From Prosthecobacter gellanilyticus (GTDB lineage Bacteria > Verrucomicrobiota > Verrucomicrobiia > Verrucomicrobiales > Verrucomicrobiaceae): 64,000 nucleotides of DNA. The notes beneath the pieces were generated by a model. That model ran no database searches, was not told where the DNA came from, and was given only the letters and a program-made list of their open reading frames with translations. Shown piece by piece: positions 5,655 through 51,623 of this stretch (its first letter is position 1; each line of letters begins with the position of its first letter). The position numbers and the translations under genes were made by a program. The stretch covers positions 124,001 through 188,000 of the forward strand of contig NZ_BKAG01000009.1 of the NCBI RefSeq assembly GCF_007992435.1, written 5' to 3'.

Positions 5655-5660
5655 TGGAGG

Positions 5661-6926
5661 TTAAAGAGATGCCGTCACACGAGGCGCTGGCGTGCGCACC
5701 CGGGAGGGCGCGGTTGGTGCGGGGATGGGTGTCGGGACGGGAGTCGTTTCGGGGCTTGCTGCGGGAGCGTTTGCAGGGCTGGTGGAGGCAGGGGCTGAAC
5801 CCGGAGGCGTGGAGGCAGGTGCTGTGACGGGAGTTGTCTGCTCACGCAGTTTTTCGGCCACAATTTGATGCAGCGCGCTCAGCTGGGTCTCGGGAGATCC
5901 TTCGAGCTTGTAGGTGCGGTCATAGAGGGCCACGGAGATGGGCAGGCCGGCAACCAGGCTGCTGTCGAGACGAAGCTGGCTGAGCGTCTGCTTGATCTCC
6001 TGAACCTTCGTGGCGGCGACTTCGGAGTTTTGCATGAACTGCATGGAGGCACCCATCATCTGGGTGCTGCTCTGCATGAGCGAGGTATTGCCGTACTGCG
6101 TGGCCATGCCTGCGCCGTAGCCTGCTGCAAAAGCAGAGGCTGCTCCCATGAGAATGTTCACTGTCTGCTGGGTCTGGGCACGCTGCTTCTCCTCGATGAG
6201 AGGGGTCGACTCGCGCTGCCAGGCCAGATACTTCGCATCCACCTCAGGGATCACGGCCTTGGTCAGGAGATTGTCCGTGTAGGCGGCGAGGACCTTCTCC
6301 CGTTCCACGGCCACGCCCTCCTGAGCGAGGCGGGCCTTGTCATCGGTGACGAGAAGCTGGGTCTCATTACCAATGAAGCCTTTCACGCGCCTAACAATGA
6401 ATTCGCCGGGCTTTTGCTTGGTGTGGACCACTGAACTGGCAATCTGGCCCCAGAGAGCCGAGGAGGGGTCTCCATTGTCGGCAAACTCCGAGGAGCTTGC
6501 CGTCACCACAAAAGGCTTCGTGGAGCGGAAGGCGCGACTGCCGTCCGAACGCAGCACGGTGAAGGAGACACTCGTGGTCTTGCCGTCCGACTTCACGATG
6601 CGGGGCTGCACCACAAGATCGGCCGCAGGGGTGGTCACCGGGGAAAAATAGGCCCCGGCCACACCCGGAGTCACGCGAAGCTGCCGAACCAGGCGGCTCG
6701 CGAGGTAGAGGCGCTCAAAGCCGCGCATGCCCTGCTCATCCTCAGGAAGAGACGCCAGGTCGGCCGTCTCAAAGGGCAGGACCACGATGGTCGGCGCCTC
6801 AGTGACCGGAGAGGTCACGCCGAGCTGGACTGGGTCTTTCTTACCGCCAACGCCGGAGGAGCAGGCGGCGAGCAGGAGCGCGGACAGGGCAGTCACGCTG
6901 TAACGAAGCATCTTCATGGACATCAT
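5661..6926 (-). CDS. Lipoprotein with Pro-rich C-terminus, first gene of envelope operon (421 aa)
   Basis: Starting at 6926, the protein has a lipoprotein signal with lipobox LLAAC followed by SSGVGG. The body begins with a strand reading TIVVLPFETADLAS, an organisation seen in outer-membrane assembly or penicillin-binding-protein-activator lipoproteins such as LpoB or CsgG relatives. I cannot assign it to one of these. A Gly/Ala/Met-rich segment lies near 280-330. The last 60 residues are a Pro/Ala/Thr-rich repeat tail, possibly periplasmic and peptidoglycan-spanning. A longer frame from 6989 has no support, and a third in-frame ATG at 6917 is an alternative start. It heads a three-gene minus-strand operon with 6-bp gaps. 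Confidence 0.7.
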   Translation of the reverse strand: MMSMKMLRYSVTALSALLLAACSSGVGGKKDPVQLGVTSPVTEAPTIVVLPFETADLASLPEDEQGMRGFERLYLASRLVRQLRVTPGVAGAYFSPVTTPAADLVVQPRIVKSDGKTTSVSFTVLRSDGSRAFRSTKPFVVTASSSEFADNGDPSSALWGQIASSVVHTKQKPGEFIVRRVKGFIGNETQLLVTDDKARLAQEGVAVEREKVLAAYTDNLLTKAVIPEVDAKYLAWQRESTPLIEEKQRAQTQQTVNILMGAASAFAAGYGAGMATQYGNTSLMQSSTQMMGASMQFMQNSEVAATKVQEIKQTLSQLRLDSSLVAGLPISVALYDRTYKLEGSPETQLSALHQIVAEKLREQTTPVTAPASTPPGSAPASTSPANAPAASPETTPVPTPIPAPTAPSRVRTPAPRVTASL

Positions 6927-6969
6927 CGGGAGTATGAGTTGATGGTTATACTTGCCTAACAGGACCTGT

Positions 6970-6999
6970 GTTTTAGTGCGGCAGCACAAAAATGGTCAA
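6970..6999 (-). promoter_or_regulatory. Possible sigma-70 promoter for the three-gene envelope operon
   Basis: On the minus strand TTGACC (6994-6999) and TAAAAC (6970-6975) are separated by 18 bp, about 45 bp upstream of the lipoprotein start. The match is reasonable but unsupported by any second line of evidence. Confidence 0.3.
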
Positions 7000-7019
7000 G
7001 GCTGTATAACAGAATGAAG

Positions 7020-7045
7020 AACAAAAAAATTTGATTTTTTTTGTT
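7020..7045. terminator. A/T-only hairpin downstream of folC
   Basis: The sequence is AACAAAAAAAT, a 3-bp loop, then ATTTTTTTTGTT, so either strand can form an A/T stem with a U-rich 3' arm. It lies in the 226-bp gap between folC and the lipoprotein gene. A G+C hairpin, GCGTGC-AGTG-GCACGC, lies at 7108-7123. Either may end folC transcription, but neither is a textbook terminator. Confidence 0.3.
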
Positions 7046-7152
7046 GGTCAGATGTCCAGATTCCCCCTTGATCCAGGCCACCTTTCGCCCGCGGCAGGTT
7101 TTCTTTAGCGTGCAGTGGCACGCCTCCTTTTTGGGAGCCCTGGAGGGATTAT

Positions 7153-8367
7153 CTACTGCAAACTGGACTGGAATGCCTTCGCCTCGCCTTCGAGCAATGC
7201 CAGAGCCTCTCCCACCAGATACAGCGAGCCGCAGATGAGGCGGCGGTGTCTGGCGCGGGGTTTCAGGGCTGCTGCCAGGTTCTCGTGGAGGGTCACGGGC
7301 ACTTTGGGGGCATCAAAGTGCGTGAGGTATTGGCGGAGCTGCTCGGGCGTGCTCGCACGGGGGGACTGGAAGGCGGTGAAGTTCCAGGAGGCGGCGATGG
7401 GGCTGAGGGCTTCCATGACGCCGGGGGTGTCTTTGTCCTTGGCAGAAGCAAAAATGATCTCGGCCTTCTCGCGCTCGAACTGCTGCTCCCAGGTGCCGGC
7501 GAGGACCATGGCGGCTTCGACGTTGTGCGCGCCATCGAGGATGACTTCGCCATCGCAGAGGCTTTGGAAACGGCCGGGCCAGCGGACATCCAGCAAGGCT
7601 TGCTCGAGGATGACGGAGGGAAGGCGGATGCCAGCCTCGCGGACGGCTTCGAGGGCAATGGAGGCGTTCCAGGCTTGATGCGGGCCGGCGAGGCCGAGCT
7701 TGGATTCGGTCAGAGGTGCATCGACGAGGAGGAGCGGACTCTTTTGAGCCTTGGCGGTCCTTTCGATGACAGCGAGCGCAGCGGGGTCCTGCATGCCGGT
7801 GACGACGGGGACGCCGGGCTTGATGATGCCTGCCTTCTCAGAAGCGATTTTGGTTAGGCTATCCCCCAGCTGTTCCATGTGGTCATAACCGATGCGGGTG
7901 ATGACGCTGACCTCGGGCGTGATCGCGTTCGTGGCATCGAGACGGCCACCGAGACCGGTTTCCAGGATGATCCACTCATGACCACGCTGCCGGAACCAGT
8001 CGAGAGCGAGAGCGAAGGCAATCTCAAAGAAGGTGGGATGAGTTTCCCAGTTCGCGACGAGCTCGCGGATCTTCTTCAGGCCGGACTCGATCTCGTCATT
8101 GGTGATCTCGCGCTCGGCATCGCGGATGCGCTCGTTGAAGCGGATGAGATGCGGGGAGGTGAAGATGCCTGCATTGATGCCCGCAGCCTGCATCATGGCG
8201 TGCATGAAGGCGCAGGTGCTGCCCTTGCCGTTCGTGCCGGCGACGTGGATGAACTTCATGCCTGCTCCGGGCAGTTCGAGCGCTGCGAGCAGCTTGTGCA
8301 CGTTCTCCAGGCCGAGCTTGATGCCGAAGAGCTGGGTGGAGTAGAGCCAGGTGAGTTCAGGAGACAT
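7153..8367 (-). CDS. folC: Bifunctional folylpolyglutamate/dihydrofolate synthase FolC (404 aa)
   Basis: This Mur-ligase-family enzyme adds glutamate to dihydropteroate and to reduced folates in the cytoplasm, using ATP. The start is followed by the family opening FGIKLGLENVHKLLAALELP. The ATP-binding loop is at 44-51 (GTNGKGST), then TSPHLIRFNERIR, a FolC signature. Residues ETGLGGRLDATNAI follow, with the metal/ATP-site Asp, and VILDGAHN begins the C-terminal domain. Length is normal for the family. It lies upstream of no obvious partner: purA is on the same strand 130 bp away, across a repeat. Assignment is firm. Confidence 0.95.
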   Translation of the reverse strand: MSPELTWLYSTQLFGIKLGLENVHKLLAALELPGAGMKFIHVAGTNGKGSTCAFMHAMMQAAGINAGIFTSPHLIRFNERIRDAEREITNDEIESGLKKIRELVANWETHPTFFEIAFALALDWFRQRGHEWIILETGLGGRLDATNAITPEVSVITRIGYDHMEQLGDSLTKIASEKAGIIKPGVPVVTGMQDPAALAVIERTAKAQKSPLLLVDAPLTESKLGLAGPHQAWNASIALEAVREAGIRLPSVILEQALLDVRWPGRFQSLCDGEVILDGAHNVEAAMVLAGTWEQQFEREKAEIIFASAKDKDTPGVMEALSPIAASWNFTAFQSPRASTPEQLRQYLTHFDAPKVPVTLHENLAAALKPRARHRRLICGSLYLVGEALALLEGEAKAFQSSLQ

Positions 8368-8374
8368 GAATGGA

Positions 8375-8481
8375 AATGACGAATGACGAAAACTGAATGA
8401 CGAAGGAAGGCCGAACTATAAATGACGAATGACGAACTCCAAGACCTGGCTGGCAGGCCTCAAGGTTCGTCATTCGTCATT
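8375..8481. repeat. AATGACG heptamer repeats with a perfect 17-bp inverted repeat
   Basis: AATGACGAATGACGAA occurs at 8375-8390 and 8421-8436. The copy at 8421-8437 is perfectly inverted at 8465-8481, with a 27-bp loop. The unit is a 7-bp direct repeat. The block fills the folC-purA gap, downstream of purA and upstream of folC on the minus strand. It could form a hairpin in the purA message, but there is no T-tract. Confidence 0.85.
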
Positions 8482-8497
8482 CGAGCTTCGTGATTCT

Positions 8498-9769
8498 TTA
8501 GGCGACGAGGGTCTGCTCGCGGGCAGGTCCGATGCCGAGGAGGCTGATCTTGGCGCCGGTGAGTTCTTCCACGCGCTTCAGGTAGGCCTTGGCCAGCGGA
8601 GGCAGGTCGGCGAAGTTCTTGGTGTTGCTGAGGTCGACCTTCCAGCCCTGGTGGGTTTCATAGATCGGCTCGCAAGCTTCGATGTCCTCCACCGTGCTCG
8701 GCGGATACTTGATCGTTTCACCACGCAGTTTGTAAGCGGTGCAGATCTGCACTTCATCGAGGCCGTCGAGACCGTCGAGGTTGGTGATGGCGAGCTCGTC
8801 GGCACCATTGACCATGACGGCGTAGCGCAGGAGCACGGCATCCAGCCAGCCGCAGCGGCGGGCACGGCCGGTGGTGGCGCCGAACTCACGACCCATGTTG
8901 TGGAGCATGTCGCCGATGTCATCGTTCTCGGTGACAAACGGACCGCTGCCGACACGGGTGGTGTAGGCTTTGCAGACGGCCACCACTTTGTCGATCATGC
9001 GCGGAGGCACGCCGGAACCGGTGCAGGCACCGCCGGAGGTGGTGTTGGAGCTGGTGACGAAAGGATAAGTGCCGTGGTCAATGTCGAGGTAAGTGCCCTG
9101 GGCGCCTTCAAAGAGGAGGCTCTTGCCGGCCTGGATGGCTTCGTGGCAGACGACGGTGGTGTTGGTGATGTGCGGAGCCAGATCCTTGGCAGCGGCGAGG
9201 ATCTTCTCGATGGTCTCCTCGACCGGCACGGCTTCGATGCCGGAGGCAACGATGAACTCATTGTTCACTGCGATACGCTCACGAAGAGCCTCGGCGAGTT
9301 TCTCAGGCTGGGTGAGCAGGATGGCACGGAGGCCGTTGCGCTCCACCTTGTCCGCGTAAGCCGGGCCGATGCCGCGACCGGTGGTGCCGATGGCGTTCTT
9401 GCCGCGACGGGCCTCACGGGCGCGGTCGAGAGCCTTGTGGTAAGGCATGACGAGATGGCAGGTCTCGCTGATGCGCAGGTTCTGCGCGGTGATCTTCACA
9501 CCCTGGCCGCGGAGCTTGGCCATCTCCTCAAGGAGACCGATGGGGTCGAGCACGACGCCGTTGCCGATGACACAGAGCTTCTCTTCCCAAAGGATGCCGC
9601 TGGGGATGAGATGCAGGATGTACTTCTGGCCGTTGTTGATGACGGTGTGGCCGGCGTTGCTGCCGCCTGCTGCACGCACGACGACATCTGTTTTTTCAGT
9701 GAGGAAATCGACGATCTTGCCTTTTCCTTCATCGCCCCACTGGGCGCCGACAACAATGGTATTGGACAT
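8498..9769 (-). CDS. purA: Adenylosuccinate synthetase PurA (423 aa)
   Basis: The enzyme joins IMP and aspartate using GTP to make adenylosuccinate, the first committed step of AMP synthesis. The N-terminal phosphate loop WGDEGKGKIVD (about 11-21) contains the catalytic Asp13. Further signatures are GSNAGHTV with the catalytic His41, GTTGRGIGPAY, FEGAQGTYLDIDHGTYPFVT and TRVGSGPFVTE. Length is typical. It is encoded alone on the minus strand between two repeat or terminator regions, so it is probably a single-gene unit. Confidence 0.97.
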   Translation of the reverse strand: MSNTIVVGAQWGDEGKGKIVDFLTEKTDVVVRAAGGSNAGHTVINNGQKYILHLIPSGILWEEKLCVIGNGVVLDPIGLLEEMAKLRGQGVKITAQNLRISETCHLVMPYHKALDRAREARRGKNAIGTTGRGIGPAYADKVERNGLRAILLTQPEKLAEALRERIAVNNEFIVASGIEAVPVEETIEKILAAAKDLAPHITNTTVVCHEAIQAGKSLLFEGAQGTYLDIDHGTYPFVTSSNTTSGGACTGSGVPPRMIDKVVAVCKAYTTRVGSGPFVTENDDIGDMLHNMGREFGATTGRARRCGWLDAVLLRYAVMVNGADELAITNLDGLDGLDEVQICTAYKLRGETIKYPPSTVEDIEACEPIYETHQGWKVDLSNTKNFADLPPLAKAYLKRVEELTGAKISLLGIGPAREQTLVA

Positions 9770-9814
9770 TTCTGGAGAGTGCGCGGCTCACTGCCGCTGG
9801 TTGAGTTGGGGGGA

Positions 9815-9849
9815 GAAAAAAACGCTGCCGGCCACTTGGCCGACAGCGT
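9815..9849 (-). terminator. Intrinsic terminator of the FHA gene
   Basis: On the minus strand a 12-bp G+C-rich stem with one mismatch (9838-9849 pairing with 9822-9833, 4-nt loop) is followed by seven T residues (9815-9821). It lies 26 bp downstream of the FHA-domain gene and just upstream of purA. Confidence 0.8.
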
Positions 9850-9874
9850 AAAACCGGGCCTCTAAGTTACCGCA

Positions 9875-10372
9875 TCAGGCGGAGAGGTTCTGGAAAGTGA
9901 AGACTGCGTAACCGACAGCTCCGAGCGCCAGCAGGCCGACGGCATAGAGCGGGCCGTAGCCGCTGCTTTTGGGCTTGGCCTTGGGGCCGAAACCGCTGCG
10001 GCGGCCTTTGTCGATGGCCGTGGCGCTGTAGCCGCCACGAGTCACGGTCTGAGCAGGGGCAGCGTAGGACGGAGCTTCCTCCGCATAGTCGCCGTAGAAG
10101 GTGACTTCCACGTGGCCGATGTTGAAGGTGCCGCCGTTCGCCATTTCCAGGCTTTCGACACGCTGGCCGCTGACGGAGGTGCCGTTGGTGGAACCGAGAT
10201 CGGTGAAGACCCAGTTGTTACCGTCGAAGATAAATTCGCCATGATTGCTGGAGACCGAGTCGTGAGCGATTTGGATGGAGTTGTCCTCAGCGCGTCCGAG
10301 CGAAAGACGCTCAGAGGTGAGTTCGACTTCGCCAGACTGGCCTTCAGGGGTCGTGAATTGGATTTTTGCCAT
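9875..10372 (-). CDS. FHA-domain protein with C-terminal membrane anchor (165 aa)
   Basis: Residues 1-90 form a forkhead-associated domain, a phosphothreonine-peptide binding fold. The conserved elements are present: LSLGR (Gly26, Arg27), a Ser41/Ser42-x-His44 loop, and LGSTNGT (60-65). After a basic linker (about 120-140) a hydrophobic segment (YAVGLLALGAVGYAVF) anchors the protein with almost nothing beyond it. The start at 10372 is chosen because the first strand of the domain (AKIQFTTPEG) follows at once; the frame extends 13 codons further upstream without support. It probably recruits a phosphorylated partner to the membrane. No kinase gene is seen nearby. Confidence 0.85.
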   Translation of the reverse strand: MAKIQFTTPEGQSGEVELTSERLSLGRAEDNSIQIAHDSVSSNHGEFIFDGNNWVFTDLGSTNGTSVSGQRVESLEMANGGTFNIGHVEVTFYGDYAEEAPSYAAPAQTVTRGGYSATAIDKGRRSGFGPKAKPKSSGYGPLYAVGLLALGAVGYAVFTFQNLSA

Positions 10373-10562
10373 AGCGTTTCGGGATTTAGCAGGCTGTGGG
10401 GGCGGTGGCAAGATGGAATCTCAGCCGGGGGAGGCGCATTTCCGGGAAGCGGCTTGCTGACGCTTTCGTCACCTGGCTTGAAGCAAATTTGATAGGTGTT
10501 TCTCCGAGGTCTGGCCGCTTTGATCTTGCGCCTTTCCCAAGGTTTCGTTTCCATGGGGGTGC

Positions 10563-13500
10563 ATGCTTTGGCGCTGTTTTTCCTCACTTTCCCTCGGGTT
10601 GCTGGTTTTCTCTGCTTCTGGGCTGGCCCAGGAGGCTTCCCCCAAGGGGGGAATGGAGGGCAAGGGGCTCTCCTCGGTTTCCCTGACCTTGTCCAGAAAG
10701 CCACCTGCGGATTATGAGAAACGTCTCAAGCCGCTGCTGACGCCTCTGAAGGAGGTCCTGGCACGGCGTGGTGATTTCGATTCGCAGGGCAAGGACGGCG
10801 TCATCCTGCTGGATGAAACTCTGATGTACACGGATGCCTCGGGGCGACGTGTCTGGGCCCACCATATGATTGAGGAGGCTGTGAACGAGTCAGGAGCCGA
10901 GACCCTGGCGGAGGACACGCATGATTTCCGCACGGATGACCAGAAACTGCATCTGGTGCTGGCACGTTCCATCCTCAAGGATGGCAAGGAGGTGCCGGTG
11001 GACGACCGGGGTGTGATCATGGAGTCCGCGCAGAACGACTCTGGCGCCAGTGTGTACGGGGACCGCGGCCAGATGCGGCTCATCTTCTCCGCCATGAAGC
11101 CTGGCATCGTGCGGGAGGTGATCACCTGCTATGAGGAGACGCAGGTGCGCATTGACGGGCATTTCACAGCGCAGGAATACATGTCAGCCTACTGGCCGGT
11201 GCGGCAGTCCCGGTTTGTGCTGCTCATGCCGGACTCCGTGGTGAGCCGGGTGAAGGAGACGCGGCTTGGCACGGGATATCCCGAGGCCGTGAAATCCACG
11301 CAGCCAGACGGCACTCACCTTTGGAAGTATGAGAAGGAGCGCATCATGCCTGACTATGCGGAGGGCGGACGTCCGCCGATGGACCAGATGGGCCCGGTGC
11401 TGTTTCTCAGCACGCTGGCGGACTGGGAGACCTTTGGCGAGTGGTACCGGAAGCTGCTGAAAGAGCGGTCTGAAGTGCCCCAGCCGCTGCTGGATCTGGC
11501 GCGTGAGTGGACGAAGGATGCGAAGACCGATCAGGAGAAGGTGCAGGCCATCGTGACCCATGTGGCGCGTGATGTGCGCTACACGGGGCTGGAGTTTGGG
11601 CTTGGCGCCCTGCAGCCCAGGTCTCCAGAGCAGGTGTGGAAGACGGCCTATGGCGACTGCAAGGACAAGTCCAACCTCTCTGCTCTACTGCTGCGGTCTG
11701 TGGGTGTGGAGGCGAGTCTGGCCCTGATTCAAACGGATCACCTGGGCCGCATCGAGCGGCGCAGTCCTGACACACGGCATTTCAATCATGCCATCCTGGC
11801 GGTGAAATCGGCGAATGGCTGGCAGTTCACGGATCCGACCATCCGCTATGTCACGCCGGGCATGCTGGCACCTTCGAGCTGTGATCGTGATGTGCTGCTG
11901 ATGAAGCCGGACGGCATCGAGTGGACACGCACGCCCGTGTCTCCTGGGGGCGAGGTGCACTACCGGCTGGATGCGGACTTTGAGGTGGACGGTTCCATCG
12001 AGGGCTGGCTGGAACTGCGGAACAGCGGGTACTATCTGGCTTCTGAGCGCAGCTATTATGAAAGCATGGGGCAGGATGAGCTGAAGCGTGATGTGCAGAG
12101 CAGCCTCAACTCTCTGCTGCCTGGTGCGCGCTTGATCGATGTGGAGAAAGGCAAGCTGGAGGGCGATGTGGCCTGGCGTGTCTTTTTCACCCTGACGACG
12201 CAGGTCAGCGGGAACGACGAGCGTCTGCCGATCACCTTTCCAGCTGGTGGAGCTGTCATGCTGAGGATGGGTGATGATGAGAAGCGGCAGACCACAAGGT
12301 TTCTCTGGCCGGTCGACTGGCGTGTCAGCGGCAGCATCCGACTGCCGGAGGGCTGGGTGGCGGCGGATGTGCCCGCCTCTTTTGATTTCAGCACGGAAGC
12401 TTATGAGGTGTCTGCCCGCTGGGAGATGAAGGACGGTGCCTGCCTGCCGCATTTTGAGGCGAAGGTGATCCGGAATTCCATGTCGGCGACGGAGCATGGC
12501 ACGGCCTGGCGTGGCACGAAGACGCTCATGGGCTGGTTGCAGAAGCCGCTCTGGCTGAAGCGTGGTGAAGGCGCCGCCAGCCCTGCACCTGCCGAGCCTG
12601 CGCTCACCCTGGGCAAGTTCCCGCTCATGCCCACCGGCGAGGGGCAGCTGGCCTTTGTGGAGGAGAAGTTTCCAAGCCAGGGCAACCGCGACATGCGCCG
12701 CATGGCCCTGCGGAAGGTGCTGGAGCATTTCGCGGATGATCCGCTGACGGTCTTCATGGCGAAGGTGCGGCTGGCACTGGCGGACTGGAGCGATGACAAG
12801 GATGCCGAGGCGGAAAAGGCCCTGCGTGAGACTAACCAAAAGCCTCACAGCAAGGTGGATGAGGAGACCGCCGCGTGGGGCCGCTACATGCAGGGGCTGG
12901 TGCTGGCGGACATGGAGAAGCCCAAGGAAGCCGCGGCGATCTTTGAGGCATTGACCCAGAAGGCGAGTCTTTCGGAATACCGCCGCGCGTGGGCCTTCCT
13001 GCAGCTCTCCTATGTGTATGAGAAGGAGAAGGATTTCGCCCGTGCGCTGACGGAGGCCCGCAAGGGGATGGCGCTGAATCATGAGGAAGTGGCGGAGGGG
13101 CTGATCGCCCAGATCACCTTCCTTTTGATCGAGCTGAAGCAGGAGAAGGAGCTTGAGACCGAACTTAAAAAGCTGGCAGATGCGCAGGCTGACAAGGCCA
13201 CGCCCTTGCTTGTGCATTTGGCAAAGCTCGCGGATGCCTGGGCCAAGAATGACAAGCCACAGCATGCGCAAGGCACGCTGAAAGCTCTCGAAGCGCTGAA
13301 CTTCAAGTCCGCAGACGCCGACTATCAGAAGTTCATGGACAGCGCGCGTGGGGCGTTGGCGGGGCAGGAAGTCTCTGGTGAGCTGCAGAAGGAGCTAAAG
13401 GCTTATTTGAGGCTGAGCCCGACAGCGCTGCAGCCGCCCACGGCGGGCTGGCCGGAGAATCGGGAGGCCTGTGCCGCCGCCTTCAAGGCCGCGGACGAAA

Positions 13501-16500
13501 GCAGCAATTCAGATGCGGGGCACCGGCTGGCCCTGCGTCTGCTCACGGAGTATCCACCTGATGCGGACTTTCCCCGCGTGCTCTGGCGCGCCGCCTCGCA
13601 TCTGGAGCACTATGAGCGCGGTCCGGAAGCGAAGACCGCCTCAACGCTGCTGCGGCTGCTCATCAAGCTCGGCAAGAAGCTGCCTGAGACGGAGGATCAT
13701 CATTGGGAAATACGCTTTCTCGAAGGAACCGTGTTTGAGTATCGCGGCCAGGACTGGCGCGGAGCGGCGGAACACTTTGCCGCCATGGATGCTGATGCGG
13801 GACTGCCCGACGGCTTCCGCTCCACCATCATCATCCGCGCCGCGAGCAACTATGAAAAGCTGAAGGAGTGGAAGAAGGCGCTGGAGATGCTGGCCCGCCT
13901 GGAACGCTGGAAGACCTATGCCAGCGCCGGAGACGGCCTTGCCCGTGCGGCACATCTGCATCTGGAGATGGGAGAGCCGCAAAAAGCGCTGCGTCTGCTG
14001 CGTGTGGTGGAGACAAGCCGTGAGTTTCATCTCAAGAACACGACGATGGAGGAAGTGCTGACCCAGTTGTTAGACCTGGCCAAGGATGAGAAGCACGCCC
14101 TTGCCATATGGCAGGCGAAACCCGCCTGGTGGCCGGCCTGGCAGGACCTGGCGAAACAGCTCGGTGTCATGGAGACTGAGGTGGAGCCGATGGTCACGGA
14201 TCCTGGAACCCTGGGAACGGAACTGAGCGAGGCCATGGAAGCGAAGGACGGTGTGCGCTGCGGCCAGATCATGCAGCGCCTAGCGCATCAGGCGCGCTGG
14301 GTGCCAGGAAACACGGTGTCTGTTTCGTGGCTGAGTTTGTACCGCATCGCCCAGGTGCGGCCGAATCTGCGGACGGAATGCCGGAAGTTCATCCTGACCA
14401 TCCTGCGAGATGCACCGGTGATGCTGGACAACGACAAGCGCTCACGCTTCATGTACCTGGCCATGTGCGGCATCGACTCCAACCTGAAAACGCAGGCGCT
14501 GGTGGACGTGCATGACTACTTCAAGGCCTATCCAAAAGATGTACATGTGATCAGCTTCGTCATGGCGCGTCTGTGGGCGCTCATCGCCATGGAGAAGGAA
14601 GCGGAGCGCCCTGCCGCCGAGGCCAGCCTGCGGGAGCACCTGGCATCTCCTGAACTGCGGGATGACCGGATGGCGAGCGTGAAAGCCATGGTGGACCTGC
14701 TGCGCGTGCAGAAGCGCACGGCGGACCTCAAGTCACTCCTGACGGCGGAATTGAAGAGCCCGGTCTTCAGCGTGGATGAAAGCGCGCTGGCGGAATTGAA
14801 GGGCATGCTCAGGGGAGCGGGCGAGACGGAGGCTCTCGGCAGCACTCTCCAAAACTGGATCACCAAGCATGCGCCGCCATGGTGGGCGTATGCGGGACCG
14901 AAGACGCTGGCGGATGCCGGATTGAAGGCAGATGAAGAAGACATCTCCAGCGCGGTGGAGAACCTGCCGTTCCAGGAGCAGGCGAAGGTCTACATCCTGG
15001 CGGCAGCGGAGCGTCAGGGCTCGATCGATCTGCGCCTTGAATGGTGGCGGCAGGGATTGATCCGTTACCTGAAGGCGCAGCAATGGAGCCGCGCAGCCTA
15101 TGAGGCGTGCATCTTCTCCATCCTGGATGATCCGGAGGCTCCCGTCTCATTGAAAGACTCCACGCTGCGCATGGCGGTGCTCTTTGCCACGGAGGTGGGG
15201 ACGGCGGAAGACTACCCAACTTTGCGGAAGCGCATGGCTGACAAGGACTGGCTGGATGACACCCGGGCCTACATGCTCTGCCTGGACCGTGTGCATGCCA
15301 CGGACCTTGGCTCGAACACCTCCATCGCCGAATCTTTGCTGGCACAGGTGAAGGACAACAACGCCATGGTGCTGGTGGAGCTGTTTGCCACCACGCTGGT
15401 GGATCGCGCGCTGGCGAAGGGCAAGGTCGATCGTGCGGAAGCTGTGACGGTGGCCCTCACGCAACTGCGCAACAGCGAAGGAATCCCGACGAAAGAGCTG
15501 CAGAGCCTGCGCCTCACGCTGATGAAAAGCATCAGCGAGGTGAGGCGCTCCATGGCGATGCATGAGGCGCTGGAGAAAGTGCTGGTGGAACATGATGCTG
15601 CTGTGCCGAAGGTGAAAGTCCCGGATGTGCTCGGTGCTGTGAATCCGTCCAACGTGGGCTCGGCTGCCTACATGGCCTGGATGCGCGAGGCGGTGCGTAA
15701 GGGTGAATATGACCGCGGAGGGCTGCACGTCTGGAACCTCCTCGGACAGGCTTGTGCGGAAGTGGATACCAATGGCATGAGGCCGCTGCGGCTGGCCCTG
15801 GCCAAGGCTGTGTTTGGCGCAGCTGCGGCTGATGATGTGGAGGATGAAACCCGCCGCTTGGCCGCCAATCTCATTCTGTCTGCCATCGACTTTGATAATG
15901 CGGAGGAGCGTGAGTTTGCGCTGTCCCTGGTGAAGCCGTGGCGTGATCCGAAACTGCCCGAGACCTATGCCGAGATCCGTTCTGAGGAGGCACAGTGGGC
16001 CTTGCGCACCGGTGGAGACTTTGATTTCAAGGCCATTCAGGAGCAGCTCAAGGATGCGGGCATGAGCAGCTTCCTGCAAAGTCTGGCGCTCTCACGCGCG
16101 ATGAGCCGTGGTGATGTGCCAAGCATCAAGCGTGCGCTGGATGAGATGGGGGCTGATGCGCTGCTGGAGCATGAGGAACTGCCGATCATCATCCCGGCGC
16201 TGAAGAAAGCCGGGCGCAAAGATGAGCTGACGCTGGCGCTGGAGGAGGCCCCGGCTGCGATGAAGGAAGCCATCCTGGACAGCTGGGGCGGCAATGATGT
16301 CTATGCTGTGCGCCGTGCCGTGACCCTGGCGGAGCTGCTCGGAAAGCCTGATGCCTTGCCGAAAGAATGGGTCGCTTTCTGTGAGAAGGCTTATCCAGAG
16401 CGGCAGGATCAACTGACGCTGGCCATCTTCATCGCGCGCATGAACAAGGACTGGGAAGGGATGCTCAAAGCGGCGACGGAGGTCATGGAAAAGTATCCGA

Positions 16501-43921: not shown

Positions 43922-43986
43922 ACCCGCGAATAACCCCGGAGCTGGAGTGCACGCAAGACACCGAATTGAGGAACCGTTTGGTCTGC

Positions 43987-45402
43987 ATGCCCAGCCAGAC
44001 TTCTTCCCGTCGTTGTTTTCTTGCTCAGAGTTCATTGGCCGCTGCTGCCGGGACGCTGGGGTTTCCGGCGATCACTCGTGCGCGGTCGCCGAACTCGAAG
44101 TTGAACTTGGTGTTCATCGGGGTGGGGGGACGGGGGGCTTCGAATGTGCAGAGTTTGGTGGGGGTGCCGCTTTTGAGGGGGAAGGGTGCGAATGAGAAGA
44201 CGAGCAGCGCGCCGATTCCGGAGCCGAGCGAGAATGTGGTGGCGATCTGTGATGTGAACGGGGAGAACCTGGACCGGGCGGCGGCGGCTTTCAAAGGGGC
44301 GAGGGCGTTCCGGGATTTCCGCAAGCTGTATGAGACGATCAAGGAGAGCGAGATAGACGGGGTGGTGGTGAGCACGACGGAGCACACGCATGCGTATGCC
44401 ACCATGCCGGCGCTGAAGATGAAGAAGCCGGTGTATTGCGAGAAGCCGCTGACGCGGGATGTGGCGGAGGCGCGGCTGATCACGAAGGCGGCGGCGGACG
44501 CGGGTGTGGTGACGCAGATGGGCACGCAGATCCATGGCATGCCGAACTATCGCCGGGTGGTGGAGCTGATCCAGAGCGGGGCCATCGGCAAGGTCAGGGA
44601 GGCGCATGTGTGTGTGTCGCGCTCCTGGGGTTTGCAGAGCCAGGAGGAGGCGGAGAAGAACAAGGACATTGTCTTTGTGACGGAACGGCCGAAGGAGGAG
44701 CAGACTCCGCCGCCGTATCTGGATTGGGATCTTTGGTTAGGCCCGGCGCCGTATCGCCCGTACAACGAGGTTTATTTCCCGGGGCCGAAATGGTATCGCT
44801 GGTGGGATTTCGGCAATGGCACGATGTCTGATCTGGGCAGCCACTGGAACGACCTGCCGTTCTGGGCGCTGAAGCTGGACGCGCCGCTGAGCATCGAGGC
44901 CTTTGGGCCCGAGCCGCACCCGGAGATCGCCCCGGCGAACATGCATGCGGTGTATGAATACGGTCCGCGCGGGGAGATGCCCGCCTGCACGCTGCACTGG
45001 CACCAGGGCAGCAGCAAACCGGACGTGTGGAAGAACGATCCCCTCATCAGCCAGTGGGGCAGCGGTGTGCTCTTCATCGGTGACCAAGGCATGCTGCTCT
45101 CCGACTACAGCAAGCACGTCCTGCTGCCCGAAGCCCAGTTCAAGGATTTCCAACCGCCCAAGCCCTTCATCGCCGACAGCCCCGGCCAGCACGCCGAGTG
45201 GATCAACGCGATCAAGAATGGCACGCCGACGGCGAGCCCGTTCAGTTATGCCGGGCCGCTCAGTGAGGCGAACCATTTGGGGAATGTCGCGTTCCGTGCC
45301 GGTGGCAAGATCCTGTGGGATGCGAAGGCGATGAAGATCACGAACAATGAGGCTGCGAACCGGTTCTTGTCACGGGAGCCGAGGAAGGGGTGGAGTTTGT
45401 AA
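43987..45402 (+). CDS. Tat-exported Gfo/Idh/MocA-family oxidoreductase (471 aa)
   Basis: A twin-arginine signal ([17 protein letters not shown], Arg8-Arg9) exports this NAD(P)-dependent sugar oxidoreductase or glycosidase-like protein folded. The Rossmann motif is [16 protein letters not shown], and [13 protein letters not shown] is the family signature with the catalytic Lys. [20 protein letters not shown] is typical of the C-terminal sheet. Similar exported members in Verrucomicrobiota and Planctomycetota act on sugars; the substrate is not known here. The upstream frame starts at a TTG at 43966 but ATG 43987 fits the signal better. It converges with the STAND gene after 21 bp. Confidence 0.92.
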
Positions 45403-45423: not shown

Positions 45424-48400
45424 CTATGTTGTTAGGGCTGCCTCGAGGAGTGCAAACTTGACAGGTCTCACCTCATTGGTTGCGGTATCCCGAGCGAGTT
45501 GACAAAGTGGTCCGGCATCCTCACGGAGGTATAAGAGTTGATTAGAAATCCATTCGCGAAATACGTGATCAGTCTGTACTGCTGGCGCTATCAATCCCGC
45601 TAGTGTGATCTGAGTGTCGAGATCGGCAACAACTTGCAACTTACCCAGAGTCAAATCTCTGCAGTCTCGATCTGTCTGTAGTCTTGAATTTATAGCCTGG
45701 AGGCCATCCCTAGCCTCGCCGAAATATGATTTTTTTAGTTTGGCCGGATAACGTTCGATATAGTCTGCCATCAGGGATGCGTTTGCCTTTAAAGCAAATA
45801 ACCATGCGGTTACTGGTTCGGGCCCATCAATATAACGAGGCAAATTTTCGATTGCGTCAGCAATTCGATTTGAGTCAGGCCAACCCCTGCACAATGCCAC
45901 CAAACCAACTTCTTGTATAAGTCCATCCTCTGCCACCAATGCTAACACTTGGCCTGCTGTCGCATCTCCAGGGAAATGATCGACCAAATAGGAAGCCATT
46001 GCATTATATGCACGAGTTTCCAACATCATCATCGATTGCCCCCTTCCTGACTGAAAGTGCTGGAGTCTAGTTAGGAACAGATCTCGGAGATTTGTGCTAC
46101 GTCCATGCAGAATGATCAGAGCTTGCACATCTTCAAGGTCCAGATGGGTGGTATTCCTAACGGTTTCCTCAAGGGCGCTTGTTTGCTCAATGGCATGCTT
46201 TCCTTTTCCAGCTTTGGCCAACTCGCTGACAAGAACTGCTACATGACGAAATTTGGCCCAGATGTCAGGTATGTTTGTAACCAAAGAGTCCCAATGCTCT
46301 ACAAGTGATGATACGAACTCCCAATTGTTCTGAGAGTTGGCAAAGGTGCTCAGTTCGAGCGGGCGTCCATTTTTTGGCTCTTTTGCTATCACATCAACAC
46401 GTCCGAGTTCCAGTAAGGCGGCTATGGCCGCTTGTTGCCGTGCTTCTTCCAGTCCAAAACATTTAAGGTCTGACTCAAGCTCTGCTATAAAGTCGTGTGT
46501 AGGATATCCTGTGCGGATACATGAGCGGGCATAGGCGCGAGCTGCCACGGTTCTTGTTTCTCCCCTCGGCTCATGTCGATATTCACTTAGAATCGTGATG
46601 GCGCTTGCTATACCCCTTCGAGCCAAGGGATCAATAGCACGCACTAGCTCCAGCCTGAGATCCTCATGAACGGCTTGCATAGTCTTATCCAACATGGGAC
46701 GTATCTCGGCATCGGTCGCATATACTTCATAGAGCGACGACAACATTATGTCGCTCGAATACATGTTGGATTTTGCCAATTGGCGAATCAAAGGTTTTTC
46801 GGGCCAAATTCCCAAAAGGGTTTTATGCCCGAGGCGCCAGTAATGACCCTCACTGTCATTTATAAGCCTAGTTTCAGCTATTAGCCAGATATCCGGTGTG
46901 TCGCGCCCCTCTGTCTCTACTAGAGCCTCCAAAGCCCGACAAGACTCGGAAGTATGTGATTGCCGGGCAATTTGTCGCAGCGCGTCGCTCAGATTGCTCT
47001 TTTCTTGAATGATAGTGGGAAGCCACTTTGCAGCTTCTGCGCGTCTCTTTTCATCGCGTATGTATTCGGCCAAGACGGCATGTATTTCCACGTCTTCCGA
47101 CCCATACATATCGAATAGGGTAGAGATAATCCATGCGGGCATAGAGTGACCTTGACGTAGCCAGTCGAGCAAGGCTTGACGACACTTTAGCGTGCCTCCA
47201 AGTTTTGCAATTATAGCAGTCTCCATTGGGTTATGGCCCGTGCGATTCCTCTCGAGCCATTCCTCTGCGGGAGAAATTAGCAATCTGTGTCGGGTGAAGC
47301 CCGCGAGTAACGATTCATGTATATCGCTGAGAACAAGATCGAGGTCGTTTCTGCGATGCATCGACATCTGGGTTGCTAGCATCTGGGCTACCTCGTCATC
47401 GCCTGGACATCCGCTAACAAGATATTGTATTGCCAGCCGAGAAGGAATCGAGTCCGGGAACCCAACACGTCCAACCTGTCCTAATGCTTCACGTTTTAGT
47501 TCGAGATCGTGTGGCCACCCTGCCGACAGCGCACTTACTATATCCCTGCCCCAAGGCCAAAGCATGCTTTCTTGGCGACAGAAACCTATCAACGCCGAAC
47601 GCACTTCCGAAGAACGTTCGCCACGGTGAAACTGAGCTAGCACTGCGACGTATCGGATTTCTAGTGCTTTAGCTTTACTTGCTGATTCCAAAACCGAGGG
47701 GAGTGCTGGATGTTCGGGCCACCCTCTAGCAAAGGCGTGCAAGGCGGATGCAAGCAAAGTTGCCTCGGCTCCTTCTTTGAGGATTGTGAGCAATTCGTCG
47801 GCTAATTGTGGCGCATTTGAAGCGCAACAAGCCAGAGCTTCGGCAATCCTACGATACTCATACCTACTGGTGCAGTTGTGCAATGCGATGCGCAAATTTG
47901 AAACCGTGTCAGGCATGGGATTCTCTGCGGCACTTGCCGGGGCCTCATTCATCCACTCGACACGGCCAGGAAACCACCTGCTCATCCGTGCCGCGACAAG
48001 ATCACTTACATGCTCCGAAAGCAGGCCTCTTGCCATCTCCCTTATCAGTACAAGACGCAAAGGCATCCAACGGCCACATTCAATCCATGAGAACGCTTGG
48101 TTGACGAGCTCGCGCGCTTTTCTGCGGGAACAATTAATTTCTGCTACGGCAAGGCGCGTTAGTAAAATTTGTTGAGTAGGTTCGTCGATTTGATCTAACG
48201 GTGGTTTTAGAATCTCTTCAATTAGCCCGTCGACGTCATCCGGACGGTCTAACAACTGCATGAGAGATAGCGTCACTTCATGCCATGGTGTCCTCCTACC
48301 TGATTCTGCGCAGTATTCTCTTACTCGATCAAGAGGCAATCTAGACAGATACTTGGCAGCTAAGTACTCTTGAAAGATCCGGTGAACCAGCCCAACATGT

Positions 48401-50271
48401 TGTTCTTGCGGCGCTACCAATATCCCGAACTCATGTTGGCCTAATTCGAGAACACGATTCGACCATTCTTCTGCTTCGCCCGTAGGTAAATCGATTTCAG
48501 AGTGGAAATAGGCGCGAAGGAGTTCAATTGCCCGTTCATTCGACACGACCAGTGAGTTAGGCTCGTGATGAATGCGATATGCCAGATACTCGATCCCACG
48601 TCGAACTCGATTGGAGCGCAAAATGGACAGATCGGCTCGTTGCATTGCTGCTCTTGCTCGGCGATGCGGCTGATCATCCAACAGTGCTTTTACAAGTTCC
48701 TCGATAGCAGCCAGCCTGCTATTAGGAAGCACCCGTCCCATAAGGCGCAAATAGATCATTGCTGAGAGCAGTAACGGAACGCCTCCTAACTCGGATAAAG
48801 CAGGATCAGTGTATAAGTCGTCCGTAAACTCTGACGCGTCACGCGTTACTGCCGACTCCAATGCCACCATGGCAAGAGATCCTTCAGCTTGATGAAAATG
48901 CCTGAACCAGTAGGTGGCAAATTCTCGTTGCTGTGGGACCGTGAGGGGGAGAAGGCTCGCTCTCTTCCAATCAGGACCAAAATCACTGATGCGCTCAAAT
49001 CCAAGCGGGCGACTCGTTGCGATAATTGGAAGGTGTCTAGTTTGAACATAGGCAGTCAAAGCAGTAAATGCCGACGCTGCTGCTTCTTGATTCTGCCACT
49101 CGTCGAGACCATCAACTAGAAGAATAAGGCGTTCGTCTGCTAACATTTCTTCAAGGAGCGATAGCACTTCACTCTTCGCTCCAAGAACACTTAGCCATGA
49201 ATGGAGTGCGCCCTCAATGGAAGGGGCTGCGTTCTCGGCGAAATGATGAGTTAAGTATGCGAAAGGAAGTAACAGCGGTAGCCGATGCGCCCAAGATTTC
49301 GCAAGTGTGGGGAAACGAGTGCTGTCGCTCAGTAGTGCGTAGATCACGACCCGTAAAGCAGCGCTTTTCCCGAAGCCTGCACCACCAATTAATAGAAATC
49401 GATCACTCGCAGCTAAGCCTACGGATAATGAGACTGTGGTTCTTATTTCTCTTCTTTGGAATCGCGTGTGTATAGATGATCGAGCGCTTTCTTCAGTGCT
49501 GTCTTGTGATCGAGGTCTGCGGTCTTGTTCAACCACAGATTCAACAAGCTCGATAGATGGCTCAACATAGCGATCAAAGACTGCCACTGGCCTTACCGCC
49601 CCGCCGAAATGAGGATACGCCGCAGGAATACCACCATCAACGCTTTGAAAAAGAGTAGCATATAAAGTTAAAATGAAACGACGTGCGCTGATCCGATTTT
49701 CCCGATTGAGCTTACGCCCTGACAAGTTGTTTGCCGCTTGTGGCCCATTAAATGCATGAACCCAAGGTCGGTCGAAGAAATCGTCAACCAGATCAGGATG
49801 GTCTTTCAACATCAATGAAAGACGGTCCCTGTCTAAAGGCTCAAAAACGATGCCTCTATCTTTGCATCGTTTGTGCTGTCTTTCTATCTCCTCGGCTAGC
49901 TCCGTTGCGTTTAAGCTTGGAGCTACCGCAAGCCGGAAGCTCTTGCTCCTGCTTGCCCAATCTCCATCTAAAAACTTTGTGACGGCATCCTTGATGTTAG
50001 TTGCTGTAATTTCCCTGTATCGTTTGCATTGCCAAGTGCCATACCCGCCAGCCGAATCACGAACATATAGATCAATTCCTTCCTGTGCTTGGCCAGGCTC
50101 CCCATAGACTCTCGCGGCTTCTACATCGCCATCCCGATGTGCGAGTCGAAAGCAAAGACGCTCGAAGTTTTCCCAAGAAAGACTTCCAAAGGGAAGTGTT
50201 TGCTCCCGGGTTATGGTTGGTGGGGGAACCGGAGGGGATTCGACGTCGAACCATAGCTGAGCAGTGTCCAT
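45424..50271 (-). CDS. Avs-like STAND/NACHT NTPase with N-terminal PD-(D/E)XK nuclease (1,615 aa)
   Basis: This is the only gene of the 45.4-50.3 kb island. Counting from the TTG at 50280, the N-terminus holds a restriction-type nuclease: Glu40 (NFERLCFRLA), Asp70 (QEGIDLYV) and Q84-C-K86 (TWQCKRYRE). A NACHT/STAND NTPase follows: Walker A at 299-306 (GGAGFGKS), Walker B at 386-394 (ILLVDGLDE) and TSR at 422-424. Residues from about 600 to the end are a long helical-repeat region, as in sensor domains. ATG 50271 is chosen over the TTG three codons upstream. Known Avs proteins bind phage proteins through the repeats and activate the nuclease; that function is an inference here. Base composition is markedly less G+C-rich than neighbours, suggesting transfer. 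Confidence 0.85.
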   Translation of the reverse strand: MDTAQLWFDVESPPVPPPTITREQTLPFGSLSWENFERLCFRLAHRDGDVEAARVYGEPGQAQEGIDLYVRDSAGGYGTWQCKRYREITATNIKDAVTKFLDGDWASRSKSFRLAVAPSLNATELAEEIERQHKRCKDRGIVFEPLDRDRLSLMLKDHPDLVDDFFDRPWVHAFNGPQAANNLSGRKLNRENRISARRFILTLYATLFQSVDGGIPAAYPHFGGAVRPVAVFDRYVEPSIELVESVVEQDRRPRSQDSTEESARSSIHTRFQRREIRTTVSLSVGLAASDRFLLIGGAGFGKSAALRVVIYALLSDSTRFPTLAKSWAHRLPLLLPFAYLTHHFAENAAPSIEGALHSWLSVLGAKSEVLSLLEEMLADERLILLVDGLDEWQNQEAAASAFTALTAYVQTRHLPIIATSRPLGFERISDFGPDWKRASLLPLTVPQQREFATYWFRHFHQAEGSLAMVALESAVTRDASEFTDDLYTDPALSELGGVPLLLSAMIYLRLMGRVLPNSRLAAIEELVKALLDDQPHRRARAAMQRADLSILRSNRVRRGIEYLAYRIHHEPNSLVVSNERAIELLRAYFHSEIDLPTGEAEEWSNRVLELGQHEFGILVAPQEQHVGLVHRIFQEYLAAKYLSRLPLDRVREYCAESGRRTPWHEVTLSLMQLLDRPDDVDGLIEEILKPPLDQIDEPTQQILLTRLAVAEINCSRRKARELVNQAFSWIECGRWMPLRLVLIREMARGLLSEHVSDLVAARMSRWFPGRVEWMNEAPASAAENPMPDTVSNLRIALHNCTSRYEYRRIAEALACCASNAPQLADELLTILKEGAEATLLASALHAFARGWPEHPALPSVLESASKAKALEIRYVAVLAQFHRGERSSEVRSALIGFCRQESMLWPWGRDIVSALSAGWPHDLELKREALGQVGRVGFPDSIPSRLAIQYLVSGCPGDDEVAQMLATQMSMHRRNDLDLVLSDIHESLLAGFTRHRLLISPAEEWLERNRTGHNPMETAIIAKLGGTLKCRQALLDWLRQGHSMPAWIISTLFDMYGSEDVEIHAVLAEYIRDEKRRAEAAKWLPTIIQEKSNLSDALRQIARQSHTSESCRALEALVETEGRDTPDIWLIAETRLINDSEGHYWRLGHKTLLGIWPEKPLIRQLAKSNMYSSDIMLSSLYEVYATDAEIRPMLDKTMQAVHEDLRLELVRAIDPLARRGIASAITILSEYRHEPRGETRTVAARAYARSCIRTGYPTHDFIAELESDLKCFGLEEARQQAAIAALLELGRVDVIAKEPKNGRPLELSTFANSQNNWEFVSSLVEHWDSLVTNIPDIWAKFRHVAVLVSELAKAGKGKHAIEQTSALEETVRNTTHLDLEDVQALIILHGRSTNLRDLFLTRLQHFQSGRGQSMMMLETRAYNAMASYLVDHFPGDATAGQVLALVAEDGLIQEVGLVALCRGWPDSNRIADAIENLPRYIDGPEPVTAWLFALKANASLMADYIERYPAKLKKSYFGEARDGLQAINSRLQTDRDCRDLTLGKLQVVADLDTQITLAGLIAPAVQTDHVFREWISNQLLYLREDAGPLCQLARDTATNEVRPVKFALLEAALTT

Positions 50272-50348
50272 TCCAATCAACTAAGCGAAAATTCTGTTGG
50301 GGATCAAAGAAAGAATCGTATTCGCAGTCTCTTTGAGAAGATTCATCC

Positions 50349-51623
50349 ATGCCCACCTCAGTCTTTTTCGCCGCCCTCTCATTGTCAGTCTTATCCCTCA
50401 CCCACGCCGCTGACTGGCCGGAGTTTCGGGGGGCGGATGGGCAGGGGCATGCGACTGATGCGGCGGGTTTGCCGGTGGAGTGGAATCCGAATGTGAATCG
50501 GAACATTCTCTGGAAGGCGGCGTTGCCGGGGGTGGGGTGGTCGTCGCCGGTGGTGGTGGGTGACAAGATCTACCTGACCAGTGCGGTGCCGGTGGGGGGG
50601 CAGGAGCAGGCGGTGGTGGACCGGAGTTTGCGGGCGATGTGCGTGAGCGCGACGGACGGGAAGGTGATCTGGGACAAGGAGGTGTTTCCACAGTCGGCCG
50701 CGAAGGCGCCGAACATCCACCGGAAGAACAGTCATGCGAGCCCGACGCCGATCTTTGAAGATGGGAAGCTCTACGTTCACTTTGGCCACCAGGGGACGGC
50801 TTGCCTGAAGGCGGAGGATGGGAGCCAGGTGTGGACGAATCGCGAGCTGAGCTATGCGCCGGTGCATGGGGCTGGCGGAAGTCCGGTGCTGGTGGGTGAC
50901 CTCTTGATCTATAGCTCTGACGGGCAGGCGGATCCGGTGGTGATCGCGCTGGAGAAGGCGACGGGGAAGGTGCGGTGGAAGTTTGACCGGGTGAGCGAGG
51001 CGAAGAAGAAGTTTTCGTTTTGCACGCCGCTGGTGATCGAGGTGGGCGGGAAGAAGCAGGTGATCACGCCGGGGAGCGGGGTGGTGAATGCGCTGGACCC
51101 GGTGACGGGCCAGGAGGTGTGGAAGGTGCGCTATGGCGAGGGCTACTCAGTGGTGCCGCGGCCGGTGTTTGCGCACGGGATGGTGTTCATCGCGACGGGG
51201 TATGACAAGCCGACGGTGCTGGGCATCAAGGTGGATGAGAAGAGCGCCGGCGATGTGACGGACACGCACGTGGTGTGGACGCTGGACAAGTTCGCCCCGC
51301 ATAACCCGAGCATGGTGGTGGCGGGCGATGACTTGTTTATGGTGGCGGACAACGGGGTGCTTTCCTGTGTGGATGCGAAGAGCGGGACGGTGCACTACCA
51401 GGAGCGGTGCACGGGGCCGATCAGTGCGTCGATCCTGTCTGCGGACGGGAAGCTGTATCTGCAGGATGAGAAGGGCGTGGGGGTGGTGGTGAAGGCGGGG
51501 AAGACCTTTGAGGTGCTGGCGAAGAATGATCTGGCGGAGAAGAGCCTGGCGTCCTATGCGGTGGTGGGGAAGGATCTGCTTATTCGGACGGAGGGGCATC
51601 TTTGGAGGGTTGGTTCGCGGTAG
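50349..51623 (+). CDS. Exported PQQ-like beta-propeller protein (424 aa)
   Basis: The signal peptide is MPTSVFFAALSLSVLSLTHA. Mature sequence begins with WPEFRGADGQGHA, the usual start of these exported propellers. Repeated blades carry the pattern hydrophobic-x-A/C-L/V-D/K-x2-T/S-G-K/Q-x-V/I-W, for example MCVSATDGKVIWDKE, IALEKATGKVRWKF and VNALDPVTGQEVWKV. Quinone-binding residues are not evident, so it is probably a binding or structural propeller. Its coding sequence runs directly into a tandem GCGGTNG repeat in which the TAG stop sits. The STAND gene lies divergently just upstream. Confidence 0.9.
   Translation: MPTSVFFAALSLSVLSLTHAADWPEFRGADGQGHATDAAGLPVEWNPNVNRNILWKAALPGVGWSSPVVVGDKIYLTSAVPVGGQEQAVVDRSLRAMCVSATDGKVIWDKEVFPQSAAKAPNIHRKNSHASPTPIFEDGKLYVHFGHQGTACLKAEDGSQVWTNRELSYAPVHGAGGSPVLVGDLLIYSSDGQADPVVIALEKATGKVRWKFDRVSEAKKKFSFCTPLVIEVGGKKQVITPGSGVVNALDPVTGQEVWKVRYGEGYSVVPRPVFAHGMVFIATGYDKPTVLGIKVDEKSAGDVTDTHVVWTLDKFAPHNPSMVVAGDDLFMVADNGVLSCVDAKSGTVHYQERCTGPISASILSADGKLYLQDEKGVGVVVKAGKTFEVLAKNDLAEKSLASYAVVGKDLLIRTEGHLWRVGSR

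Follow-up and report, generated by a model that had tools for sequence, protein, structure and literature searches.

The locus under study lies in a 64,000-nucleotide stretch of a Prosthecobacter gellanilyticus contig (the window; all positions are given within it) and consists of one large gene between two genes of metabolic type (Table 1). The sequence-only reading, made from the letters and their open reading frames, had already placed this ORF at 45424-50271; the frame is real and runs on the minus strand, which that reading did not state. An alternative TTG start at 50280, 9 bases upstream of the ATG, would give an ORF of 45424-50280 and 1,618 aa. Residues are numbered here from the ATG, so that the nuclease residues earlier given as Glu40, Asp70 and Gln84-Lys86, which fit the TTG start, are confirmed as E37, D67 and Q81-K83. 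The two NTPase motifs reported at the same time, GGAGFGKS and VDGLDE, are both found in the protein. A frame or assembly artefact is ruled out, because a Lysobacteraceae homologue of 60% identity is collinear with the protein across about 1,610 residues. The scan for promoters and terminators returned fewer sites than the shuffle mean.

Table 1. Genes at the locus and predicted parts of the STAND protein.
Feature	Residues	Position	Strand	Basis or remark
GFO/IDH/MocA oxidoreductase gene (left flank)		43966..45402	+	one side of the empty site; outside the system
Nuclease-NACHT-solenoid STAND gene	1,615 aa from ATG	45424..50271	-	ORF and relatives
HEAT-like alpha-solenoid, presumed sensor, with small C-terminal beta hairpin	681-1615	45427..48231	-	AlphaFold2, Foldseek, divergence
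Helical region following NACHT	459-680	48232..48897	-	structure model and VIA comparison
NACHT NTPase	292-458	48898..49398	-	Walker A GGAGFGKS, Walker B VDGLDE; Pfam, alignment, folds
Mrr-like PD-(D/E)XK nuclease domain	20-185	49717..50214	-	E37, D67, Q81-x-K83; Mrr_cat, alignment, predicted structure
PQQ beta-propeller protein gene (right flank)		50349..51623	+	other side of the empty site; outside the system

The N-terminal domain matches the Pfam model Mrr_cat at 17.2 bits, under the cut-off of 21. In an alignment of 11 rows, D67, Q81 and K83 are kept in all ten rows that carry the nuclease domain and E37 in nine of them; the Deinococcus row (L014), in which the nuclease is a separate annotated CDS, was excluded from these counts. 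Loss of the nuclease residues in homologues, against which the sequence-only reading had asked to be checked, is therefore not what the family displays. The core of PD-(D/E)XK nucleases has the order alpha-beta-beta-beta-alpha-beta. AlphaFold2, run on five-row alignments for residues 1-720 and for residues 681-1615, predicts for the first of these (mean pLDDT 67.4) a helix at 33-46, strands at 49-56, 65-71 and 77-83, a helix at 90-102 and a strand at 109-116. The predicted domain thus has both the catalytic D and Q-x-K and the core order of a PD-(D/E)XK/Mrr_cat nuclease. The listed structure-search matches of the 1-720 model all concern the NACHT part, in the region from about residue 186 onwards.

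On the Deinococcus aetherius plasmid pDAETH-3 (L014, 11923-16790), nuclease and NACHT are annotated as two genes, which may mean that the system is split or that the frame is broken; the separate nuclease scores 20.9 bits with Mrr_cat against the cut-off of 21. A similar N-terminal Mrr-type nuclease is encoded on Deinococcus gobiensis plasmid P3 (L051, 9729-13826), where the gene lies between a type I restriction system and Tn7-like transposition genes. This protein was not counted in the family, since Pfam gives it a weak Mrr_cat match (19.0 bits, cut-off 21) together with TPR, and PIN-TPR-GreABC below its cut-off, with NACHT absent. Since a similar nuclease head occurs in a protein that has no NACHT match, the Mrr-type nuclease may be an exchangeable effector cartridge.

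The central NTPase matches Pfam NACHT at 31.9 bits, over the cut-off of 26.7, and the model is matched in all seven aligned family members; the Walker A and B residues tested are kept in 11 of 11 aligned rows. With the 1-720 model as query, the first ten Foldseek rows (E 7e-9 to 1e-6) comprise NLRC4, NLRP3 and NOD2, with Avs4 seventh. In the VIA comparison the best 12 rows have Z of 17.1-20.9 over 270-304 aligned residues, at rmsd 3.3-5.0 and 13-17% identity, and the maximum Z of 20.9 spans 304 residues at rmsd 4.2. The nearest solved folds of the modelled NTPase are thus those of the animal NLRs NLRC4, NLRP3 and NOD2, and residues 459-680 would occupy the position of the NLR winged-helix and helical domains. 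Animal NLRs carry CARD or PYD effector domains and LRRs. The likeness accordingly covers NACHT and the helical domains that follow it, whereas the P. gellanilyticus protein has a nuclease in place of CARD or PYD and a HEAT-like solenoid in place of the LRRs. A PDB sequence search with the protein found no solved-structure match, a profile search against solved structures gave weak matches only, mostly to P-loop and repeat proteins, and NCBIfam returned one irrelevant match far under its cut-off. The genome of P. gellanilyticus has two further NACHT genes; one of them (L074, G000:C22:62000-79000, 7393-11160) encodes a 1,255 aa protein at G+C 0.49, with a phage integrase gene (13270-14370) some 2 kb away.

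The C-terminal part (residues 681-1615) is modelled with a mean pLDDT of 82.0 as an almost all-helical solenoid that ends in a small hairpin. The helical repeats proposed for it from the sequence are therefore present in the model, over a predicted solenoid of ~900 residues. Foldseek gave 32 solved chains at E <=0.001, mostly of HEAT type (RanBP5, CAND1, SF3B, importins), and no viral structure at the same threshold. Because the TM values of these matches are only 0.13-0.25 and the rmsd is above 30, which is poor across the whole length, the likeness of the predicted solenoid is to the HEAT repeat type and not to a particular protein. Pfam HEAT_2 is matched in three of the seven family members, and not in the P. 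gellanilyticus protein. Identity to the distant relatives is 35-48% in the nuclease (8 rows), 29-34% in NACHT, 21-34% in the region after NACHT and 13-23% in the solenoid halves (9 rows for each of the last three). In these comparisons the solenoid is the fastest-diverging part of the protein. Such divergence is what a shared effector combined with a changing sensor would give, although it is not proof of a sensor; a sensing role of the C-terminus is presumed.

The gene differs in composition from the DNA on both its sides, as the sequence-only reading had noticed. Its G+C is 0.498, whereas the flanking 10-kb stretches have 0.603 and 0.605, and 100 other overlapping segments of the same size have a mean of 0.601 (sd 0.011, minimum 0.566). 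GC3 is 0.447, compared with 0.82 in the GFO/IDH gene, 0.83 in the PQQ gene and 0.80 in the aspartyl-tRNA synthetase (AspRS) gene. The STAND gene is evidently foreign in origin. That it stands alone between two metabolic genes, with neither integrase nor partner, also holds: the flanking genes are 4.95 kb apart, the STAND gene takes up 4.85 kb of this distance and is the only gene of the insert, and none of the eight neighbouring ORFs scanned matches an integrase. A two-gene system was rejected, as the insert contains no partner gene. The only PADLOC result among the same eight ORFs is one weak match (PDC-M08B, E 2e-4), to an aspartyl-protease protein; they gave no other sign of a defence neighbour. 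Terminal repeats were looked for at the edges of the insert without success, and the 64-kb window contains no tRNA.

The corresponding empty site was sought with the two flanking proteins as queries in the 48 genomes of the genus. In 9 of the 47 other genomes the orthologues of the flanks are immediate neighbours, with order and orientation conserved and 53-193 bases between their aligned ends. In eight of these the best flank matches are adjacent; for the ninth, G046, adjacency depends on a second match of partial length, as its best GFO/IDH match is a fragment located on a different contig. Three of the nine (G021, G044 and G046) have a GFO/IDH gene truncated by the contig end. In four further genomes (G006, G028, G040, G042) the two best matches lie far apart on one contig, and in the other 33 their contigs differ or only one of the two orthologues was detected; inspection within this group covered G024, where both orthologues are inside contigs, and the PQQ side of G037 and G039. 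These data thus do not establish the junction throughout the genus, 37 of the 47 genomes having neither adjacent flanks nor another insert. In a sister genome, a different insert of 5.6 kb occupies the same GFO/IDH-PQQ junction (L039, G017:C23:18500-31000, 3731-9066). By eye it carries flippase-like, SGNH-like and carbamoyltransferase-like genes and no NACHT genes, and the STAND protein has no match in that genome. Given this second insert, the site may accept insertions repeatedly.

None of the other 47 genus genomes, which include incomplete drafts, matches the STAND protein at E <=0.001. Among 142 genomes of relatives, six had any match and two, P. gellanilyticus itself and G048 of its taxonomic family, a full or nearly full-length one; in a sample of 387 genomes of the phylum any match was found in five, and one covering most of the length in the same two. 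The patchy distribution that had been predicted is thus observed (1 of 48 genus genomes, 2 of 142, 2 of 387). Scanning the contigs of 84,980 species for six short peptide patterns, a method that detects close relatives only, yielded one homologue, L007 of Lysobacteraceae bacterium 2PB, which is 60% identical over residues 7-1617 and is the closest relative found. It differs by about 110 extra N-terminal residues (encoded at 162-490 of L007) that have no Pfam match; by eye these are possibly a winged helix. Within the family of this homologue (297 genomes) two genomes match, namely its source and one that matches at residues 17-170 only.

The relationships of the STAND protein run opposite to those of AspRS, whose gene lies 2.7 kb further right. 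Identity of AspRS is 89% to G005 of the genus, 73% to G048 of the family, 67% to G074 of the same order and 45% to the Lysobacteraceae genome G142, whereas the STAND protein is 60% identical to its counterpart in G142 and 29% identical, over residues 17-1344, to that in G048. These opposite identities clearly point to horizontal transfer of the gene between distant bacteria, and the strict vertical inheritance that the sequence-only reading had set against itself is not seen. The Lysobacteraceae copy, at G+C 0.537, also departs from the other 3.4 kb (0.642) of its 8.7 kb contig, on which the one other ORF scanned is a CorA transporter.

Plasmid relatives that match over most of the length occur in Pantoea, Enterobacter, Streptomyces and Deinococcus. 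In total 28 plasmid records match; at least 80% of the query is covered in one place in one of the 28, and among the 20 matches listed 12 rest on the nuclease or NACHT part alone. Alignment to viral contigs gave six loci: L052, L053 and L054, which are distinct, one of the same size as L054, and two weak ones. Phage records gave no match, nor did a single-protein scan of viral contigs, and E. coli genomes, queried with about 4 kb of DNA from each of two relatives, gave none.

A phage integrase gene in divergent orientation lies 0.2 kb from the start of the relative in G048, and another is 0.1 kb from L052; the viral contig of L053 carries a terminase, and that of L054 a Clp-type protease together with a capsid match that falls short of its cut-off. 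On the Enterobacter plasmid, a CBASS phospholipase (about 8 kb away) and four TIR-domain genes lie within about 11 kb, and on the Deinococcus aetherius plasmid one TIR gene is found about 11 kb from the relative. In the stretches shown of the Pantoea and two Streptomyces plasmids, where many products are hypothetical, none of the genes is named as a defence gene. Mobile surroundings therefore appear to be common in the family, defence neighbours accompany some members, and several seem to stand alone like the P. gellanilyticus gene; the mobile or defence surroundings expected earlier are found in some of the relatives. In the G048 locus (L049, 8106-13018) the C-terminal part is in another frame and E37 is replaced by Q; genes for a phage integrase, DUF3987 and RhuM lie nearby, and the frame change may be decay or an assembly error. 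The Lysinibacillus plasmid match falls under several small ORFs. From these two cases it appears that decay also happens in the family.

Among better known systems, the closest kind appears to be the bNACHT or bacterial NLR-related proteins, rather than Avs. The predicted NTPase corresponds to the central NACHT module of bNACHT proteins, with a Pfam score above cut-off, a match in seven of seven members and NLR folds, and the order of effector, NACHT and presumed C-terminal sensor is that of the bNACHT architecture; the earlier proposal that nuclease, NACHT and a helical presumed sensor share a single polypeptide is supported accordingly. The proteins bNACHT25 and bNACHT32 (clade 6) are described as single proteins with an N-terminal PD-(D/E)XK DNase, a central NACHT and a C-terminal sensor; D48A abolishes both defence and DNA degradation, and bNACHT25 requires host DnaJ (PMC12169576). 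Compared by that description, they differ in having an NCH1 C-terminal domain in place of the ~900-residue HEAT-like solenoid (PMC12169576). No NCH-type Pfam model matched the STAND protein at E <=1, if NCH1 is in that Pfam copy. Likewise, Mrr_cat-STAND-repeat proteins are reported from P4 satellite hotspots; an Mrr-type nuclease, a STAND NTPase and C-terminal repeats are shared, and, the comparison again being by description, the repeats and the NTPase clade may differ (PMC9122126).

It is very probable, from sequence, models and analogy, that the gene encodes a self-contained, horizontally moving suicide DNase of bNACHT type (bacterial NLR-related) that senses phage. At rest the NACHT module would hold ADP and keep the nuclease domains apart. 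Contact of the HEAT-like solenoid with a product of the phage, or with a host protein that infection has altered, would lead to nucleotide exchange at NACHT and to oligomerisation of the protein. The clustered N-terminal Mrr-type PD-(D/E)XK domains would then cut DNA, of the phage or of the host, and the spread of the phage would be stopped, probably at the cost of the cell.

The sequence-only reading had regarded the protein as an Avs-like sensor and possibly a new Avs subtype, which is not supported by NACHT as identified by Pfam, by the animal NLRs as nearest solved folds, or by the weak comparison with Avs2. Avs2 proteins combine an N-terminal Mrr-like nuclease, a STAND NTPase and a large C-terminal part in a single gene, and this three-part plan is common to both. 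PADLOC gave only Avs2 for the STAND protein, a weak match within the nuclease part (E 0.009, 11.7 bits, residues 37-101 of the TTG form), and the model is matched by three of seven family members (best 2e-5); Avs4 (8dgf), seventh in the Foldseek search with the 1-720 model, has E 5e-7. However, all six rows above Avs4 are NLRC4, and the Avs2 model reaches 704 bits with an Avs2 from the same order (L061 of G074) as against 11.7. Compared with L061 by BLASTP, the STAND protein falls short of significance (E 0.53), and when the two are compared as profiles the probability is 25% (E 8e-4) across 54 columns of the NTPase; L061 also has no Pfam NACHT match. Membership in Avs2 was rejected on these scores. 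The STAND protein may work like an Avs, but by these comparisons it is not an Avs2, and an Avs protein in the strict sense, of a new subtype sensing terminase or portal, is very unlikely. Avs1, Avs3, Avs4 and Avs5 had no match at E <=1 in PADLOC or NCBIfam, whichever Avs models those libraries contain. Other PADLOC families matched weakly across the family: mad8 in five of seven members (best 1e-4), and PtuA, GajA and others in fewer. The P. gellanilyticus genome itself has no Avs2 match at E <=0.001; a weaker match to the Avs2 model (184 bits) occurs in another genome of the genus (L063, G007).

A defence gene aimed mainly at plasmids or rival mobile elements, whose nuclease destroys the DNA of an incoming or resident element, would agree with the occurrence of relatives on plasmids, on viral contigs and beside an integrase, places where weapons against rival elements are common. 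This is unlikely, though, in view of the tested NACHT-nuclease protein bNACHT25, which is reported to respond to phage MS2 proteins (PMC12169576). Least credible, indeed extremely improbable, is a regulatory or housekeeping STAND protein with no role in conflict: the lone position, metabolic neighbours and intact reading frame would suit it, but the lack of a match in the 47 other genus genomes, the foreign composition, the apparent transfer between distant bacteria and the conserved nuclease residues all speak against such a role.

Beyond the bNACHT-type reading, a more far-reaching proposal is rather doubtful and is put forward tentatively: the family may form a separate, undescribed nuclease-NACHT clade in which a karyopherin-like HEAT solenoid reads a molecule of the phage, or one of the host changed by infection, unlike the known triggers of Avs1-5 and bNACHT25, and the gene may be a one-gene receptor passing between the P. 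gellanilyticus lineage, Gammaproteobacteria, Deinococcus and Streptomyces. If the protein works in the manner proposed, it would be another one-gene NLR-like immune receptor, in which a conserved nuclease is joined to a fast-changing solenoid. The occupied and empty sites at the same junction within one genus provide a clean natural comparison, and recognition by the solenoid is a direct, testable question.
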